A DNA stretch of 64,000 nt, taken from Dyella jiangningensis. Its GTDB lineage: Bacteria; Pseudomonadota; Gammaproteobacteria; Xanthomonadales; Rhodanobacteraceae. Under the pieces are notes generated by a model, which searched no databases, was not told the origin of the DNA, and worked only from the letters and a program-made list of their open reading frames with translations. Positions 1 to 13,476 of this stretch are shown piece by piece. The position numbers and the translations under genes are program-made. The DNA lies in the NCBI RefSeq assembly GCF_003264855.1, contig NZ_NFZS01000005.1, positions 1-64,000 on the forward strand. The letters are read 5' to 3'. Numbering within the stretch: the stretch's first letter is position 1; every line of letters begins with the position of its first letter.

Positions 1-95
1 AGTCGCTCGGCCACCTCCGTAACGGGGTAGCCACGCTCGCTAACCTGCTTAACCGCTTCAGCCTTAAACTCGTCAGTGAAACGCTTGCTGGTCAT
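1..95 (-). CDS. IS3-family transposase OrfA, N-terminal part only
   Basis: The visible 31 residues begin MTSKRFTDEFKAEAVKQV and continue through ERGYPVTEVAERL. This is the typical start of IS3-family OrfA, a small helix-turn-helix protein that binds the element ends. The remainder, and the OrfB integrase expected after it by programmed frameshift, would lie to the left of the window. A GGAGG-like ribosome site (GATCGGAGGATCT) sits just before the ATG, which fixes the start. The first codons overlap the tail of the small gene downstream of the ATPase, on the same strand, showing that the element inserted within or at the end of that gene. Family assignment is firm; the subgroup is not determined. 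Confidence 0.8.
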   Translation of the reverse strand, partial: MTSKRFTDEFKAEAVKQVSERGYPVTEVAER

Positions 96-426
96 AGATC
101 CTCCGATCCTCAATAGACACTATCAGGTGTCTACGGAATCGGGGGCGTACCACATCGTCTGCGTAACCATTGAGCTCAAGCCATGCGGGCCAGTCCAAGA
201 CCAAGTCGCCAGCAGTATCCGGCGGAGCACCGGCCAGATTGGCGGAAAATCTCAGTACACGATATGAGGTGCCGTAGTCGCTTTTAATGCGATACCACTT
301 CCCGTGGGCGCGCCTGCGATCGGCCTTGTCTGGCATCCAGCGATGCGAAATGACCATCCAACCAAGAGGGATGCCAATTCGCTCAGCAAAGGCAGCCGGT
401 GATATCCGTTTGAATCTCCCTTTCAT
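73..426 (-). CDS. Small unknown protein downstream of the ATPase, 3' end replaced by IS sequence
   Basis: A 117-residue frame starts 6 bp after the stop of the ATPase gene, so the two are almost certainly co-transcribed and perhaps translationally coupled. I do not recognise the family. The first ~98 residues look like real protein with mixed basic and aromatic content (motifs HRWMPDKADRRRAHGKWYRI and VLDWPAWLEL). Roughly the last 19 residues are encoded by the insertion sequence, reading through its leader and the start of OrfA in another frame. The native C-terminus is therefore missing, and the product may be a non-functional fragment. Its tight spacing suggests it was a partner or accessory of the ATPase. 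It could alternatively be an independent cargo gene of a mobile island. Confidence 0.6.
   Translation of the reverse strand: MKGRFKRISPAAFAERIGIPLGWMVISHRWMPDKADRRRAHGKWYRIKSDYGTSYRVLRFSANLAGAPPDTAGDLVLDWPAWLELNGYADDVVRPRFRRHLIVSIEDRRIYDQQAFH
114..133. repeat. Perfect 7-bp inverted repeat at the IS boundary
   Basis: TAGACAC and GTGTCTA flank a 6-nt loop (TATCAG). The structure lies 18 bp before the OrfA start codon. It may be part of the terminal repeat of the insertion sequence or a hairpin in the transposase leader. Which of the two cannot be decided without the other end of the element. Confidence 0.6.
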
Positions 427-432
427 AGGTGC

Positions 433-2520
433 CTAGCTCGCAACATCGATAATCTTCGATAATACATTAACCATTCCAGAGGGCCTATGGCCGTCTTGAC
501 TCATCTTCGCCAAGATGAGGTTCCGTAAGGCTTCGTAAGAAACGGTTATGTTCAACTTGGGAACCAATCGTCGAAGAACATCCCTCCCCGGAAATATCTT
601 CATCCAAGACTCGTTCGAAAGACCATCCTGGTAATAGGACCTCCTCTCTTCCGCGAGTGCTCGAAGACTATCTACATTGAGCCCTAACGAAGCCTTGCCT
701 AGCTTCTCCATGGATCGAACAACGGCTGCGGCGGCAGCGCCTGCCAAATCGGGAGAGTTCGGATCAAATTCCGTATTGATGGACCTTACAAGCGCTGTGT
801 TCGCGTATGCAGAGAGATCACGGCGAAGAAGCATGGGCAACGTATCTTTCGCCGCATCCCAAAGAGCTTTGTAGACCCCTTCCTTTGTTAATGCCCTGCC
901 TGGCTCTAGTTCCTTAACTACGCGAAGGATATAGTCCGGCTCGAGGAAATAATTTTCGATGTGGTACACATCCCAACTGAACTGATTCGTGCGTTCAGTC
1001 GAAAGAGGTTCACCGTCGCTATCATTGATGCAAAAGAACTTAAGCGGCACCTCTCCCTCGTTTGCGGCCTTTTCAAGGATATCTAGTAGCGCCCTTACTC
1101 TCTGCTTGTTCGTCCCGGAGATAAGGTTTGCCTGCTGCCCGACCTCTGGAAACAACGTGGAGACGACTCGCTTATCAAAGTCAGAGTCGCCACCACCTTC
1201 GAGAATTATGACCTTTGCACCGGGATGATAAGCGGCCAAATCTCCAACCATATCAATGAGCGCAAGGTCGAGATCCTCCCTCACGGAGAGAGCCTTCAAC
1301 TGGTTTTCACCAGGAGCAACAGCAGCACATGGAAGCATGTGATACACGTTGTAGGCCTCGCGCCCCACCACCTCCCTCAGCAGCGCGTCCGAATGTGTTA
1401 CGAGCCATATTTGATTTTCCAGACGTTCACCCAAATTTTTCCTGTAGAACTCAGGCAGCCCACGAATTAGCCTTGGATTCAGATGAAGCTCTGGCTCATC
1501 AAGAAGAATTATTGAATAACGAGGGGCCGAGTTCCTGATTCGAAGATATCCATACAAGATCTCTTTTTCGCCAGCACTCAATTCATCGAGATCATGTGTA
1601 CTGTTCTCACCGATCTTGACAGGAAAAGTCAGAGCTCCTGCTTTAGTGGGCTGCGGTCCCAGGAATACCTTTTCCGGAAAAAATGTCTGAAAGAGCTCTT
1701 GCAGAGTCGCGGTCAAGGTCGACTGCGCTGCATCATCAAATCCCGCGCGCTCGGCCAGAATCTCCTTCACATACGAGGCGGCCATTTCGCTCTTTACATT
1801 GTTGTACTTGGCCGCATAGTTGTAGAGCGCCGTATGACTTCGCTGCTGATCGTTTGCATCAAGGTTGAGATTTATCCCCTGGACACTTTCCCGTCCGTAG
1901 TGGCGCTGCGCCCCATGAAAGTCGATAACACCGATCTGCCGCGGCCTGAAAGTACTAAACACAATGGACAGAGCAATCGAGTTTCTGATTTCAGGAGGCT
2001 TTCCGGGCTGAATGCGGAAGCGAGCGTTGATGGTCGGCCTGTTCAATTCGGACATGAGCACCGCATACTCTTGTTCAACTCGACTCGCCACTTCAGCTTC
2101 TCGATCTCTAACCTGGGTGGCAAACATGCTTGCCGTCCTACCCCAGGAATAGGCCTCAGGAAGAATTACCTTCCAGATTTTTTCGCGCAGTAGCTCATGC
2201 GCATTGTTCGCAATGAAGCTTCGCTCCTCGCTCGCCATCTTAAACTCACATTCGATGACTACATCTCGCTGCGGATTGTTGAAGATCGACGTGAAGTCAG
2301 CGGCACTATTCGTTAGGTTGATCTGAAACTCGCCCATCCATTGCTGCCATTCATTTGCCTGGTAACCGCCGTATACCGACTTAACCAATCGAATGGCATC
2401 AAAAACACATGATTTGCCCGAGCCGTTCTGGCCGGCGATGATCACGATGCTGCCAAGGTCTTTCATGGAAACATCAGCAATGCCTCGAAAATTTGATATG
2501 CGCAGGCTTTCAATCTTCAT
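433..2520 (-). CDS. AAA ATPase fused to a TOPRIM/DUF4435-like domain (OLD/PARIS-like, candidate defence protein)
   Basis: This 695-residue protein has an ABC/SMC-type ATPase in the first ~400 residues. Walker A is GQNGSGKS (30-37), the signature LSAGEKE (314-320), Walker B IILLDEPE (337-344) and the switch histidine is in LVTHSD (~376). After that comes a second domain with ILEGGGDSDF (~439-448), CINDSDG (~497-503) and HIENYFLEP (~520-528). That order of an E, a DxD and an ENY motif matches DUF4435/TOPRIM-like domains. The same pair of domains occurs as two proteins (AriA, AriB) or fused in PARIS, and similarly in OLD nucleases. A ribosome site AAGGGG precedes the ATG. Base composition is clearly lower in GC than the surrounding genes, and an IS lies next door, both signs of transfer. 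A defence role is inference; the domain reading is firmer. Confidence 0.75.
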   Translation of the reverse strand: MKIESLRISNFRGIADVSMKDLGSIVIIAGQNGSGKSCVFDAIRLVKSVYGGYQANEWQQWMGEFQINLTNSAADFTSIFNNPQRDVVIECEFKMASEERSFIANNAHELLREKIWKVILPEAYSWGRTASMFATQVRDREAEVASRVEQEYAVLMSELNRPTINARFRIQPGKPPEIRNSIALSIVFSTFRPRQIGVIDFHGAQRHYGRESVQGINLNLDANDQQRSHTALYNYAAKYNNVKSEMAASYVKEILAERAGFDDAAQSTLTATLQELFQTFFPEKVFLGPQPTKAGALTFPVKIGENSTHDLDELSAGEKEILYGYLRIRNSAPRYSIILLDEPELHLNPRLIRGLPEFYRKNLGERLENQIWLVTHSDALLREVVGREAYNVYHMLPCAAVAPGENQLKALSVREDLDLALIDMVGDLAAYHPGAKVIILEGGGDSDFDKRVVSTLFPEVGQQANLISGTNKQRVRALLDILEKAANEGEVPLKFFCINDSDGEPLSTERTNQFSWDVYHIENYFLEPDYILRVVKELEPGRALTKEGVYKALWDAAKDTLPMLLRRDLSAYANTALVRSINTEFDPNSPDLAGAAAAAVVRSMEKLGKASLGLNVDSLRALAEERRSYYQDGLSNESWMKIFPGRDVLRRLVPKLNITVSYEALRNLILAKMSQDGHRPSGMVNVLSKIIDVAS

Positions 2521-2632: not shown

Positions 2633-2668
2633 CAAAAAAAAGGGGCGTGGAAAACATCCGCCCCTTTC
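2633..2668 (-). terminator. Intrinsic terminator of nrdJb
   Basis: On the minus strand the stem GGGGCGGAT / a matching CGCCCC arm around a loop rich in T is followed by eight T residues. It lies 24 bp beyond the nrdJb stop codon and separates it from the foreign island. Confidence 0.8.
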
Positions 2669-2691: not shown

Positions 2692-3435
2692 TCACCCGCA
2701 CTTGCTATACCCACAATTCAAGCAAGTCTGGCAGCCGTCCATCAGCACCAGCGCCTGGGTGTTGCACTTGGCGCAGAGGGTGGCGCCGGGCGGGAAGCCA
2801 TTGGCGTTGGTGGGCTCGGCACTGCCTTCGGCAGCCGGGGCGGCCTTCTTGGGATTGGCGGCAGCTTCATAAGCGGCGCGCTTTTCGGCGATGAGCTTGC
2901 GGGTGCTCTCGTCCAGCTCCGGGTCGTGGATCAGGCCGATCATCTTCATGTGCTGCTCGATGACGGTGCCGATCTCGGCGACGATGCTGGGCATGTAGAC
3001 GCCGCCGGCCTTGAAGTAGCCGCCGCGCGGGTCAAACACGGCCTTCATCTCTTCGACCAAGAAAGTGACGTCGCCGCCCTTGCGGAACACGGCCGACGTG
3101 ATGCGGGTGAGCGCCACGATCCACTGGAAGTGGTCCATGTTCTTCGAGTTGATGAAGATCTCGAAGGGGCGGCGCTGCTCATATTGCGTGCCGGCGTTGA
3201 GCACGATGTCGTTGACGGTGACGTACAACGCGTGCTCGAACAGCGGCGACTTGATCTTGTAGGTGGAGCCGATGAGCGTCTCGGGACGCTCCAGGCTCTC
3301 GTGCATCTGGATGACTTCTGCCTTGGGCGCCTCTTTGGCAGCCGGGGCGGCAGGGGTTGCGACGGGCGCGGCGGCCTTGTCCTCGGGCTTGACGACGTTG
3401 TAGCCCTTGATCTTCTTTTCGATCTTGATCGCCAT
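2692..3435 (-). CDS. nrdJb: NrdJb, C-terminal subunit of split B12-dependent ribonucleotide reductase
   Basis: The 247-residue product matches the separate C-terminal piece of class II (adenosylcobalamin) ribonucleotide reductase known from Pseudomonas and Xanthomonadales. After a lysine start and an alanine/proline-rich linker (residues ~20-40), it carries the TSCPD-type region: YKIKSPLFEHALYVTVNDI, INSKNMDHFQWIVALTRI and the glycine-containing segment FRKGGDVTFLVEEMKAVFD. The tail holds four cysteines as two CxxC-like pairs (CAKC, CLNCGYSKCG). In related enzymes, tail cysteines re-reduce the active site or bind zinc. It works with NrdJa to turn ribonucleotides into deoxyribonucleotides in the cytoplasm. 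It lies third in a minus-strand group after nrdJa and a histone-like gene, not directly next to nrdJa as in Pseudomonas. Confidence 0.9.
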   Translation of the reverse strand: MAIKIEKKIKGYNVVKPEDKAAAPVATPAAPAAKEAPKAEVIQMHESLERPETLIGSTYKIKSPLFEHALYVTVNDIVLNAGTQYEQRRPFEIFINSKNMDHFQWIVALTRITSAVFRKGGDVTFLVEEMKAVFDPRGGYFKAGGVYMPSIVAEIGTVIEQHMKMIGLIHDPELDESTRKLIAEKRAAYEAAANPKKAAPAAEGSAEPTNANGFPPGATLCAKCNTQALVLMDGCQTCLNCGYSKCG

Positions 3436-3553
3436 GGTGTGTGCTTCTTTTTCGAGTCTTGAGGGGCGCTAACAGAACCTTGGGGTCCGGGCCTGGGTTT
3501 CCAACAGCTTTAGGGGCTGGGGCCTGGCGCGGATTGGGGCCTTGAGGCGCTGG

Positions 3554-3573
3554 ATTCCGGCCTGCGCCGGAAT
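3554..3573. repeat. Short palindromic repeat (REP-B family)
   Basis: ATTCCGG-CCTGCG-CCGGAAT is a compact palindrome. The same sequence, with small changes, recurs near 10.66, 10.80, 12.44 and 13.41 kb, always between genes. Confidence 0.8.
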
Positions 3574-3646
3574 GACGGCCTTAACGAAGGCGTCCGTGTC
3601 CTGGGTTTGGTAGCGACGTCCTGGCGGCGCGCGTCGCTGGAAACAA

Positions 3647-3675
3647 TCCGGCCCGGCGTTTGTCGCCGGGCCGGA
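3647..3675 (-). terminator. Strong hairpin after the histone-like gene
   Basis: A perfect 12-bp stem (TCCGGCCCGGCG / CGCCGGGCCGGA) with a 5-nt loop begins 13 bp past the stop of the histone-like gene. Read on the minus strand it is followed only by TTGTTTCC, so termination may be partial and leave some read-through into nrdJb. Confidence 0.6.
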
Positions 3676-3687
3676 CCGGATTACAAC

Positions 3688-4278
3688 TTACTTGCGGCGG
3701 GCGGCTTTCTTGGCCGGCTTGCGCACGGCCTTCTTCACGCCTGCCTTCTTGCTGGCAGTGGACCTCTTGACCGCCTTGGCGGCCTTCTTACCGGCGGCCT
3801 TGCGGGCCGTCTTCTTGACTGCGGCCTTCTTGGCCGTCTTCTTGCTGCTGACCTTGCGAGCAACCTTCTTGGCGGCCGACTTGCGCACGGCCTTCTTGGC
3901 GACCTTGCGAGCGACCTTCTTGGCGGCGGCCTTCTTCACCACGCGCTTCTTGGCGGCGGCCTTCTTGGCGACCTTGCGGGCGCCCTTCTTGGCAGCGGCC
4001 TTCTTCACGGCCTTCTTGGCGACCTTTTTAGCGGCAGCCTTCTTCACGGTCTTCTTGGCAGCCTTCTTGGCGGTCTTCTTGGCCGAAGCCTTCTTGACTG
4101 CCTTCTTAGCTGCCGCCTTCTTGGCCGGAGCTGCCTTCTTGGCCGGAGCCGACTTCTTCTTGGCACGGGCCTTCTTGGGGGCGGCTGCCGAGGTCACTTC
4201 GACCACGGGAACCTCCACCGGCGCGTCAACAACCTGTGCGGCTTCTTCTTTCACTTCGAAATCAGTATCGATAGACAT
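3688..4278 (-). CDS. Histone H1-like, lysine/alanine-rich DNA-binding protein
   Basis: After an acidic, serine/valine-rich head of about 45 residues, the 196-residue protein is almost entirely AAKK, KKAAAKK, KKVARK and KKTAKK repeats, ending in AARRK. This composition is that of bacterial H1-like proteins such as HctB, BpH1 and AlgP, which coat or condense DNA without a fold of their own. The coding DNA is itself repetitive, so the gene probably varies in length between strains. It sits between nrdJa and nrdJb on the same strand, a placement that splits an otherwise adjacent pair. The start is the only ATG before the repeats. Nucleoid binding is inferred from composition; the target and role are unknown. 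Confidence 0.85.
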   Translation of the reverse strand: MSIDTDFEVKEEAAQVVDAPVEVPVVEVTSAAAPKKARAKKKSAPAKKAAPAKKAAAKKAVKKASAKKTAKKAAKKTVKKAAAKKVAKKAVKKAAAKKGARKVAKKAAAKKRVVKKAAAKKVARKVAKKAVRKSAAKKVARKVSSKKTAKKAAVKKTARKAAGKKAAKAVKRSTASKKAGVKKAVRKPAKKAARRK

Positions 4279-4392
4279 GCGGGTAATCCCCTCCGACGTG
4301 GATTTGGATCTTGTAGTGAGCCTTGCCTCAAGGCATCCGGAACGACTCTTACAAGCGTGCCGGAACCTGAGTACCAGGTCCCGGCGACGATA

Positions 4393-6537
4393 TTAGAACT
4401 TTCCGTAATACCCTTCCTTCAAGGCATCGAACAAATTGGCGGCCGTGTGCATTTCGCCGTCGTACTCCACTTCTTCGTTGCCTTTCAGTTCCACAACGCT
4501 ACCGTCTTCCAATTCGAAGCGGTAGAGGGTGCTCTCAAGATCGGCTTCCTTCACCAGCACGCCCTGGAATGCAGCGGGGTTGAAACGGAAGGTGGTGCAG
4601 CCCTTGAGGCCCTGCTTGTAAGCGTAGAAGTAGATGTCCTTGAAGTCTTCGTAGGGATAGTCGGTGGGGACGTTGGCCGTCTTGGAGATGGACGAATCGA
4701 CCCAGCGCTGCGCGGCAGCCTGGATGTCGACGTGCTCCTTGGGCGAGATGTCGTCGGCGGCCACGAAGTATTCGGGCAGCTTGGACTTCGGGTCGTCGGA
4801 GAACGGCAGCGCGTCGGCGTTGATGAGCGCGCGGTAGGCCAGCAGCTCGTAGCTGTAGACCTCCACCTTTTCCTTGGTCTTGCGGCCCTCGCGGATCACG
4901 TTGCGCGAGTAGTGATGGGCAAAGCTGGGCTCGATGCCGTTGCTGGCGTTGTTGGCCAGCGACAGCGAGATGGTGCCGGTGGGCGCGATGGAGCTGTGGT
5001 GGGTGAAGCGGGCGCCGGTTTCGGCGAGCTCGGCCACCAGGTTCGGGGCCACTTCGGCCACGCGCTGCATGTAGCGGCTGTACTTGGCGTGCAGCACGCG
5101 GCCGGGGATGGTGTCGCCGACTTTGTAGCCGTCGGTGACCATCTCGGGGCGCTTGCGCAGCATGTCGCCGGTGACGGTGTAGTCACGCGCCAGCACCGGT
5201 GCCGGGCCCTTCTCCTTGGCGAGGTCGAGGGCAACTTCCCAGCCGGCCACGGCCATCTCGCGGGAGACGTCCTCGGTGAAGGACACGGACTCGGCGGTGC
5301 CGTAGCGCATCTTGAGCATGGTGAGCGTGGTGCCCAGGCCCAGGAAGCCCATGCCGTGGCGACGCTTGGAGAGGATCTCGTTGCGCTGCTGCTCGAGCGG
5401 CAGGCCGTTGATCTCCACCACGTTGTCGAGCATGCGGGTGAACACCTTGACCACTTCGCGGTATTCGTCCCAGTCGAAGCGGGCCTTGGGGCCGAACGGG
5501 TCGCGCACGAAGGTGGTGAGGTTGACCGAGCCCAGCAGGCACGATCCGTACGGCGGCAGGGGCTGCTCGCCGCAGGGGTTGGTGGCGCGGATGTGCTCGC
5601 ACCACCAGTTGTTGTTCATCTCGTTGACCTTGTCGATCAGGATGAAGCCCGGCTCGGCGAAGTCATAGGTGGACACCATGATCATGTCCCACAGGTGCCG
5701 CGCGCGGATGTGGCCGTAGATCTTGCAGGCGACCAGGCCGTCTTCGCGCTCCACGTAGTTTTCGTGGGTGGGCCATTCGCGCCACACGACCTTGGCGGGA
5801 TCGTTGAGGTCGATCTCGTCCTGTTCCTTGACGTGCACCGGGAACACCATCGGCCAGTCCTGGTCGTGCTCCACCGCCTGCATGAAGCCGTCGGTGATGA
5901 GCAGGGACAGGTTGAACTGGCGCAGGCGGCCGTCTTCGCGCTTGGCGCGGATGAATTCCTTCACGTCCGGGTGGCTCACGTCGAACGTGCCCATCTGCGC
6001 GCCGCGGCGACCGCCGGCGGACGAGACGGTGAAGCACATCTTGTCGTAGATATCCATGAAGGAAAGCGGGCCGGAGGTGTAGGCACCCGCACCCGACACG
6101 TACGCGCCGCGCGGACGCAGCGTGGAGAACTCGTAGCCGATGCCGCAACCGGCCTTCAGCGTGAGGCCGGCCTCGTGCACCTTCTCCAGGATGTCGTCCA
6201 TGGAGTCACGGATGGTGCCCGACACCGTGCAGTTGATGGTGGAGGTGGCCGGCTTGTGCTCCAGCGCGCCCGCGTTGGAGGTGATGCGGCCCGCGGGAAT
6301 GGCGCCGCGGCGCAGCGCCCACAGGAAGCGTTCGTTCCAGTGCTCGCGCAGCTCGGGGGTGGTTTCCACTTCGGAAAGAGCGCGGGCGACGCGCTGGTAG
6401 GTTTCGTCGACACTGCCGTCGACGGGCTCGCCGGACTTCGCCTTGAGACGGTACTTCTTGTCCCAGATGTCGTAGGACGCCGGCTGCAGCGGAATGGTGG
6501 TGTCGCGATTTACGGCTGGTGCACGCATGGTGCTCAT
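4393..6537 (-). CDS. nrdJa: NrdJa, catalytic subunit of B12-dependent ribonucleotide reductase
   Basis: The 714-residue protein is the class II (adenosylcobalamin) ribonucleotide reductase large part, which makes deoxyribonucleotides with or without oxygen. The catalytic signature NPCGE is at residues ~320-324 (radical cysteine 322, glutamate 324, asparagine 320). Cysteines 103 (STINCTVSG) and 333 (YGSCLLGSVN) form the expected redox pair. The conserved LKAGCGIGYEFSTLRPRG and SSAGGRRGAQMG segments are present. It lacks the C-terminal extension of single-chain NrdJ, which is supplied in trans by NrdJb downstream. Upstream lie NrdR-box-like palindromes, suggesting control by the NrdR repressor. 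No cobalamin riboswitch is apparent. Confidence 0.95.
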   Translation of the reverse strand: MSTMRAPAVNRDTTIPLQPASYDIWDKKYRLKAKSGEPVDGSVDETYQRVARALSEVETTPELREHWNERFLWALRRGAIPAGRITSNAGALEHKPATSTINCTVSGTIRDSMDDILEKVHEAGLTLKAGCGIGYEFSTLRPRGAYVSGAGAYTSGPLSFMDIYDKMCFTVSSAGGRRGAQMGTFDVSHPDVKEFIRAKREDGRLRQFNLSLLITDGFMQAVEHDQDWPMVFPVHVKEQDEIDLNDPAKVVWREWPTHENYVEREDGLVACKIYGHIRARHLWDMIMVSTYDFAEPGFILIDKVNEMNNNWWCEHIRATNPCGEQPLPPYGSCLLGSVNLTTFVRDPFGPKARFDWDEYREVVKVFTRMLDNVVEINGLPLEQQRNEILSKRRHGMGFLGLGTTLTMLKMRYGTAESVSFTEDVSREMAVAGWEVALDLAKEKGPAPVLARDYTVTGDMLRKRPEMVTDGYKVGDTIPGRVLHAKYSRYMQRVAEVAPNLVAELAETGARFTHHSSIAPTGTISLSLANNASNGIEPSFAHHYSRNVIREGRKTKEKVEVYSYELLAYRALINADALPFSDDPKSKLPEYFVAADDISPKEHVDIQAAAQRWVDSSISKTANVPTDYPYEDFKDIYFYAYKQGLKGCTTFRFNPAAFQGVLVKEADLESTLYRFELEDGSVVELKGNEEVEYDGEMHTAANLFDALKEGYYGKF

Positions 6538-6708
6538 CGGCTTCCTGACCTCCCGGTACGGCCTTTCGGCCCCGTGTTGGTTTCTTGTTTTATTCGGCTA
6601 TGCCGCTCGCGTCAGTCACGTGCCGGAGAAACCACATAGCCAGCACACTGCCCGACCTTTGCGCTCCCTGCCTGACCTTCGACAACTCCCCCAAGGCCGC
6701 ATCCCCTG

Positions 6709-12389: not shown

Positions 12390-13476
12390 GTAGGAGCGCA
12401 CCCAGTGCGCGACAGCCTTTCGCCACGGTCTTCATTGTTCGTCGTTCCGGCGAAGGCCGGAACCCAGAGCCTCGGTTTCTGGTTGTCGCGCTATCGCCAC
12501 CGGGCTCGCCTGCGACCGAAGGGAGTCCCCATGGGACAGGGGCGGGCTTCCGAGCCGCTGCCGCGGCCCGAGTCACTTCTCTTTGCTTGCTCGCGCGCGT
12601 AGGAGCGCGTGCGAACGGCGAAGCCGGCCCGCACGCGGGGAGGCGCCATGAATGGCGCCGGCTTTGAGGAGCGAGGAAGGGCGAAGGGTAGGATGCCCTG
12701 AGTCAAGAAAAGTAACCAAAAGAAAGAGCACCCCGCGTGGCGCTGGCCGGGCTGCGCCCAGCCAGTCCGTGAGGGGCGGCCGGGCTTTTCGACCGGGCTC
12801 CTGTCCGGACGAAAAGTGCCCGACGTCCTGTCGGGCACCCCTGCGGGGCCTGATCGTCCACCCCTCACCGCCCCACAGGGGCCCCGGAAAGGCTCGTGCC
12901 GCTGCGCGGCACATCGCGATGCGCAGTCGCTTTGCTCGTTGTGGGAGCGCACCCTGTGCGCGACCGCAGAGGTCATCGTCGACGCCGATCGCGCACTGGG
13001 TGCGCTCCTACAGGGACGAGCCCCCGCTCTTGGCTCTGGCTCGTGACCTCCGGGCCCCTATGCCGCGGCGGGCGGGTGGAGGAAAGCCCGAAGGGTGGCC
13101 GGCAGGACGCCGGCCAGTTTGTCGTCAGGGCAGGATGCCCTGTCGACAAACCCCGTAACCCGCCCGCGAACCTTCCGGGCATAAGCCCGGAAGGCGCGGC
13201 ATCGGGGTGGCCTTTCTCTTGGTTACTTCTCTTTACTCCGGGCGTCCTGCCCTCCGCCCTTCGGGCCGGCTTCGCCGTTCGCACGCGCTCCTGCGCGTGC
13301 GTGGCCACGCAAAGAGAAGTGACCCGGCAGCCGGCAGGCCGGCGGAAGCCCGCCGCAGGCGAGCCCGCTGGCGATATCGAGACAACCATAAACCGAGGCT
13401 CTGGATCCCGGCCTACGCCGGGATGACGATCATGTAAACCGAGGCGAAAGGCGGTCGCGCACAGGGTGCGCTCCCA
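12390..13476. repeat. About 1.1-kb gene-free imperfect palindrome built from an inverted noncoding unit
   Basis: The whole space between the convergent aminopeptidase and DUF4126 genes is one imperfect inverted repeat centred near 12.93 kb, with arms of about 500 bp. Matching blocks, outside to inside, are: GGAGCGCACCC plus CCTTTCGCC (12390 vs 13476); the REP-B palindrome followed by CAGAGCCTCGGTTT (12443 vs 13423); CGCCNNCGGGCTCGCCTGCG (12495 vs 13370); TCACTTCTCTTTGC (12572 vs 13320); GCGTGCGAACGGCGAAGCCG (12608 vs 13290); AAGTAACCAA (12710 vs 13225); and GGCGTCCTGYCGGSCACCC (12820 vs 13110). Copies of the 23-bp REP-A element also lie near the centre (12941-12963 and 12989-13011). No frame here has a convincing start or homology; I read it as noncoding. 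Confidence 0.8.

Follow-up and report, generated by a model that had tools for sequence, protein, structure and literature searches.

A probable single-chain PARIS (AriAB) gene at a variable, defence-rich chromosomal site of Dyella jiangningensis

The DNA analysed here (the window) is a stretch of 64,000 nucleotides from Dyella jiangningensis, and its left edge is a contig end (G000:C5:1). Close to this edge, an open reading frame of 695 codons starts from ATG on the minus strand (433..2520) and matches the PADLOC model PDLC02981 for fused AriAB (PARIS). The 5' part of an interrupted small gene follows on the same strand (153..426) and stops where the end of an insertion sequence begins (1..152). 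We take this element, from reading alone, to be IS3-like. On the other side of the AriAB gene lie a hairpin with a T-run (2634..2664, minus strand, read from the sequence), a TSCPD gene (2692..3435, minus strand; Pfam TSCPD, 33.9 bits) and a core gene for the large chain of ribonucleotide reductase (4393..6537, minus strand; Pfam Ribonuc_red_lgC, 434 bits), presumably of class II (nrdJ) as judged by reading. The AriAB gene sits 3' of this reductase/TSCPD pair. A lysine- and alanine-rich protein, which we assume from its look to be histone H1-like, is encoded between the two genes (3688-4278, minus strand) and is also found in Dyella kyungheensis. The promoter scan found none, and the terminator scan did not report the hairpin at 2634..2664 on the minus strand. 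The first three kilobases of the window have a GC content of 51-54%, while the other 61 kilobases range from 59 to 71% with only one of them below 60%, in agreement with the low-GC composition proposed for this region in the sequence-only reading.

The 695-residue protein joins two domains. Residues 1-381 (1378..2520, minus strand) form an ABC ATPase domain of the AAA_15/AAA_21 type, which carries the motifs GQNGSGKS, LSAGEKE, IILLDEPE and LVTHSD. Both Pfam families are well above their cut-offs, with 66.2 bits for AAA_21 (cut-off 27, E 6.8e-18) and 64.2 bits for AAA_15 (cut-off 32.1, E 2.3e-17). Residues 439-538 (907..1206, minus strand) form a DUF4435/TOPRIM-like core with E441, D500, D502 and E522-N523-Y524, recognized by Pfam and hhalign. 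The Pfam match of this core to DUF4435 (PF14491) has an E of 0.012 and 15.8 bits, under the gathering score of 27 bits. All seven motifs named in the sequence-only reading are present in the translation, at residues 30, 314, 337, 373, 441, 499 and 522, and the architecture that it proposed is supported by Pfam and hhalign. Compared with D. kyungheensis AriAB, 215 codons differ silently and 62 amino acids are replaced, and the changes at codon positions 1, 2 and 3 number 42, 30 and 241. Because silent differences exceed replacements, the gene is under purifying selection and is not a chance open reading frame.

The AriAB model matches the protein with 662.4 bits over positions 1-692 of 694, and the next-best model reaches 81.5 bits. 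The cut-off of this model is not displayed; the original fusion profiles used 80 and 20 bits, according to the available text of PMC9122126. At low scores the model is quite loose: all 14 control genomes have matches (E up to 0.001), and so do three other places in the genome of the window, with at most 32.7 bits in the latter. The same text describes fusions into a single-gene AriAB together with PARIS and counts them as PARIS (PMC9122126, in part). The window protein is like this fused PARIS in its full-length profile match and in the order of an ABC ATPase followed by a DUF4435-like domain, and no difference from it was found in the comparisons made. The PARIS assignment suggested earlier therefore stands on a full-length match, and as a member of a curated family the protein does not represent a new system.

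One scan for AriAB gave 20 loci in genome contigs, and another gave one in viral contigs (L033). When these 21 loci are read from where the match begins, 13 are unbroken and full-length, and eight are broken by a contig end, a stop or a frameshift. Twelve of the 13 full-length proteins, together with the window and D. kyungheensis proteins, make up the alignment A2; the thirteenth (L013) was left out as a duplicate of D. kyungheensis, which was entered as L008. Counting the genome of the window, the clade was seen in two genomes out of 148 relatives (E up to 1e-20) and in two out of 369 members of the class (E up to 1e-60). The nearest relative is the D. kyungheensis (Rhodanobacteraceae) protein, which is 91% identical and encoded at the same chromosomal site. 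The two loci share 85% DNA identity, and their flanks 87-88%, which fits either inheritance from before the species split or two related acquisitions. A palindrome-like element, perhaps of REP type, stands between TSCPD and AriAB in D. kyungheensis (L008, 8264-8317) and is absent from the shorter gap in the window. Five plasmid records contain an AriAB match, two of them covering 99% of the query. On the Lichenicola cladoniae plasmid (L011, 1034-8567) the fused gene comes directly after a tyrosine recombinase, and a separate ATPase and DUF4435 gene pair is found 2.6 kb beyond it. On the Kovacikia minuta plasmid (L010, 1202-12086) AriAB is flanked by an annotated integron integrase and a tyrosine recombinase; cassette-like mobility is possible there. 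No match was found in a phage collection of 50,697 records, and with one viral contig (L033) in all, a phage-borne system was rejected as the usual setting of AriAB. As far as the homologues were examined, none stands in a housekeeping context, the setting that the sequence-only reading had set against a role in defence.

The C-terminal domain was compared with DUF4435 proteins at the profile level. A profile of the C-terminal part of 14 AriAB proteins aligns with seven stand-alone or two-gene DUF4435 proteins at 96.2% (E 2e-9, hhalign), and the N-terminal half, used as a control against the DUF4435 profile, gives 0.2%. A second pair of alignments between the AriAB C-terminus and two-gene DUF4435 proteins gives 95.5%. 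The N-terminal profile in turn aligns over 91 columns with two AriA-type ATPases (96.2%). Residues E441, D500, D502, E522 and N523 are invariant across the 14 proteins of A2 and align with the invariant E27, D83, D85, E109 and N110 of the seven two-gene DUF4435 proteins. The acidic residues typical of TOPRIM, a glutamate followed by D-x-D, are present in the AriAB domain. A putative TOPRIM fold of this domain is supported by profile comparison. No solved AriA or AriB chain was matched by the window protein alone (E up to 0.001) or by the AriAB profile (E up to 0.01). The C-terminal profile has three weak PDB matches in all, and AriB is absent among them up to E 5. The best E values were 0.71 to 1.6 when the PDB was searched with this profile, a single DUF4435 protein or the DUF4435 profile; we take these matches for chance, and none provides a direct alignment with solved AriB. 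With no solved chain matched, the window protein is far from the assayed E. coli system. It has two domains in common with the two-gene PARIS of E. coli (AriA and AriB; solved AriA 8ux9 and 8v45-8v49) and keeps the core acidic DUF4435 residues; it differs in lacking a detectable sequence match to the solved chains at these thresholds.

The ABC ATPase-then-TOPRIM order in one chain is also found in the OLD family nucleases (class 1 OLD and GajA of Gabija). The protein could accordingly be a class 1 OLD enzyme, that is, a DNase under ATP control that attacks the DNA of the phage or of the host, with the AriAB label reflecting domain order only. In the accessible part of a review, single-gene AriAB is left as a possible separate OLD class (PMC10568477). 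The C-terminal profile does align with an OLD-like one-chain ATPase at 74.6%, and three other one-chain ATPase-DUF4435 proteins reach just 28.0% with it (hhalign). However, DUF4435 gives the stronger match, at 96.2% compared with a value of 74.6% that comes from a single OLD-like sequence, which places the domain nearer to DUF4435 than to OLD. In PADLOC, AriAB leads with 662 bits, while the best GajA model reaches 48 bits and Old 41 bits (40.8). No OLD-type TOPRIM model was listed in Pfam up to E 1, where the filters drop most matches above 0.1. We consider the OLD explanation unlikely, and the assignment to fused PARIS is retained below.

The small gene next to AriAB was proposed in the sequence-only reading as a possible extra component. 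Its open reading frame does start at 426, 6 bp past the AriAB stop codon and on the same strand, but the gene is interrupted by the insertion sequence at 152/153. The insertion sequence suspected nearby is real. Bases 1-152 of the window recur at three other contig ends of the same genome (C1, C3 and C6), and the opposite end of the element is found at three contig ends. The element is found in several other Dyella genomes with its end at the same base (152), and its length is about 1.1 kb in one relative (G004). Because bases 1-152 are the end of this element, the gene is broken off here, and the last ~25 residues of the 117-residue reading frame come from the insertion sequence. At the right end of contig C4, the flank opens with a 3-bp repeat of the triplet that precedes the element in the window, as in a target duplication, and the frame of the small gene stays open there for ~56 more residues, with a hydrophobic stretch. 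This flank runs into a 1.0-kb segment that four other Dyella loci also have on their right side (86-92% identity), which supports joining the right end of C4 to the left end of C5. We infer from these sequence features that the two contigs are probably joined across the insertion sequence, and the whole gene would then encode about 147 residues with a hydrophobic stretch at its C-terminus.

The 1-kb segment at the right boundary comes back in partial copies nearby and in other Dyella; the places concerned are 12386-13396 in L008 and, past the insertion sequence, 3524-4534, 13049-13368 and 16263-16362 in L108 (reverse complement). The segment may be a dispersed repeat or a small gene family. 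At 4820-11052 of L108 (reverse complement), also past the insertion sequence, reading frames of 1760 and 315 residues look RHS/YD-repeat-like by eye, and such frames stand right of the island in the genome of the window.

A multi-part system that needs the small gene would be in line with its position 6 bp from AriAB and with the continuation of its frame beyond the insertion sequence into a hydrophobic C-terminus. The comparative evidence is against it. When the 92-residue real part was searched against 33 loci (tblastn), only the window's own copies were found, and all others had E 0.79 or worse. The reading frames listed downstream of 18 other AriAB loci among these 33 have no small gene in common. 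Searches of 347 other genomes of the order and of plasmid and phage collections gave no relative, and there is no match in Pfam, PADLOC, NCBIfam or PHROGs. In D. kyungheensis, a different reading frame occupies this position beside the 91% identical AriAB. With relatives missing from the loci and collections searched, the gene interrupted and another frame in its place in D. kyungheensis, the small gene was rejected as a component of the system; a multi-part system of this kind is highly improbable, and we take the gene for a passenger.

The chromosomal site is defined by the TSCPD gene, which forms its conserved left boundary; the variable insert begins just past the hairpin at 2634..2664, and similar hairpins are seen by eye in many of the loci inspected. 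All 20 Dyella genomes contain TSCPD. In the family it is found in 86 of 87 genomes, with all 26 genera represented. With at least 300 bp of matching sequence taken as similarity, the 2 kb upstream of TSCPD are similar in all 190 pairs among the 20 Dyella genomes, while the 2 kb downstream (one such segment being only 658 bp long) are similar in two of the 190, one of which is the AriAB pair. The GC content drops by at least 0.05 just downstream of TSCPD in 16 of the 20 Dyella loci and upstream in one of 20. Again, in other genera, represented by the 24 best-scoring non-Dyella TSCPD matches, the drop is found downstream in 15 of 24 loci and upstream in one of 24. Taking the 20 Dyella and 24 other Rhodanobacteraceae loci together, 31 of 44 have a low-GC downstream side, and four Dyella and nine other loci have no downstream drop of that size. 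A tRNA gene, considered as a possible integration target, is present in 0 of 19 Dyella loci and in one of 24 loci of other genera. The latter is a tRNA-Ser (CGA) gene that overlaps the end of the TSCPD match (L112, G039, 2222-2309); it may offer mobile DNA a second route of entry. At another locus (L060, G004:C2:4500-20000), two extra TSCPD 3' ends are spaced through the insert (4520-4816 and 6368-6664). They cover residues 149-247 and are 90-91% identical to the window protein, compared with 97% for the full copy. These look like nested integrations, each bringing the end of the donor's gene, and hint at how the site exchanges its cargo.

Known defence genes are found at this site in genomes that lack AriAB. 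From 10 of 18 such Dyella genomes, 20 proteins were chosen by eye out of 89 reading frames, and eight of them, from five of the 10 genomes, match PADLOC models (E up to 1e-15), leaving 12 without a match. In other genera, 12 stretches were taken, all or nearly all chosen for low GC, and nine of 10 by-eye proteins from six of these match PADLOC, in five of the six. No match was found for 10 core proteins of the window, taken as a control; the strength of all these counts is limited by the choice by eye, by generic ATPase matches and by the control being unmatched. The Dyella cargo includes an AriA-type ATPase adjoining a DUF4435 gene (G008). This ATPase matches the solved AriA 8ux9 at 2e-19, and the DUF4435 gene is matched by Pfam but, at E up to 1e-15, by none of the PADLOC models. 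Dyella genomes also carry a dCTP deaminase (542 bits, PADLOC), a GmrSD/HEC-06 protein and, each together with a methyltransferase, a SIR2 protein and a CARF protein. The matched proteins from the other genera are PtuA with a TIR protein, DRT8, MzaB/MzaC accompanied by a methyltransferase and Vsr, a candidate PDC-M34A and an OLD-like ATPase of generic type. As a separate observation, the ATPase/DUF4435 pair of G008 (L064, 3118-8724) is followed further on by a one-chain OLD-like ATPase, whose C-terminus is also DUF4435-like in look.

It is well supported by these data that the segment 3' of nrdJ-TSCPD is a family-wide defence hotspot in Rhodanobacteraceae. The horizontal transfer and defence context proposed in the sequence-only reading are borne out by the variability of the site and by the other defence genes in relatives. 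Distant similarity to Rad50 and RecF in the first ~45 residues might point to a housekeeping or DNA-repair ATPase of the RecF/Rad50 type carried on a genomic island. This was rejected as very unlikely, given that AriAB homologues are rare and patchy (2 of 148 relatives, 2 of 369 members of the class) and that the site is variable and holds defence genes.

The site resembles cDHS1 and cDHS2 of Pseudomonas aeruginosa, as described in the accessible text of PMC10250203, in having a conserved core flank and variable, low-GC, defence-rich cargo, and in no single mobile element being evident. cDHS2 likewise carries PARIS and dCTP deaminase (PMC10250203, in part). The flanking genes are different from nrdJ-TSCPD, however, and the P. 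aeruginosa sites lie beside a tRNA or tmRNA gene, in contrast to the near absence of tRNA genes at the TSCPD site (PMC10250203, in part). Among the matches listed in the open literature, a coverage that leaves subscription papers mostly outside, none describes a hotspot in Dyella or at nrdJ-TSCPD. A word search in the main text of a Stenotrophomonas survey gave no ribonucleotide reductase, TSCPD or nrdJ (PMC11680222, main text). We conclude that the window gene is probably a single-chain PARIS (AriAB) anti-phage gene, acquired horizontally at an exchangeable defence hotspot behind nrdJ-TSCPD.

In two-gene PARIS, AriB is held by an AriA hexamer until an anti-restriction protein of a phage, such as Ocr, triggers its release, and the released AriB cleaves tRNA-Lys (PMC11455837; available text of PMC12409363). 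By analogy, the ATPase half of fused AriAB would oligomerize and keep the TOPRIM half inactive. A phage protein sensed via the ATPase half would trigger the protein, the TOPRIM half might then cut nucleic acid, most likely host tRNA, and growth of the infected cell would stop. The window protein differs from the two-gene system in being one chain, so that there is no free effector to release. Since the two halves form a single chain, the effector stays tied to the ATPase, and activation should therefore be a rearrangement inside the oligomer. In the PARIS literature covered, some of it available in part, no trigger or substrate was seen for any fused AriAB. We tentatively propose, with somewhat less than even confidence, that single-chain AriAB is a separate mechanistic class without effector release, moving through the nrdJ-TSCPD hotspot, where one-chain and two-gene PARIS-type systems interchange.

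With the window gene, fused PARIS gains a further member, and this form may or may not be a separate OLD class (PMC10568477, in part). A fused chain would tell apart two models of activation, as the release of AriB is impossible in it. For the family, the TSCPD gene beside the reductase is an easily recognized core marker of a Rhodanobacteraceae site that often holds known defence genes. Because known defence genes adjoin them, the unnamed genes at this site are candidates for defence, and the hotspot may be a more useful output than the gene itself.
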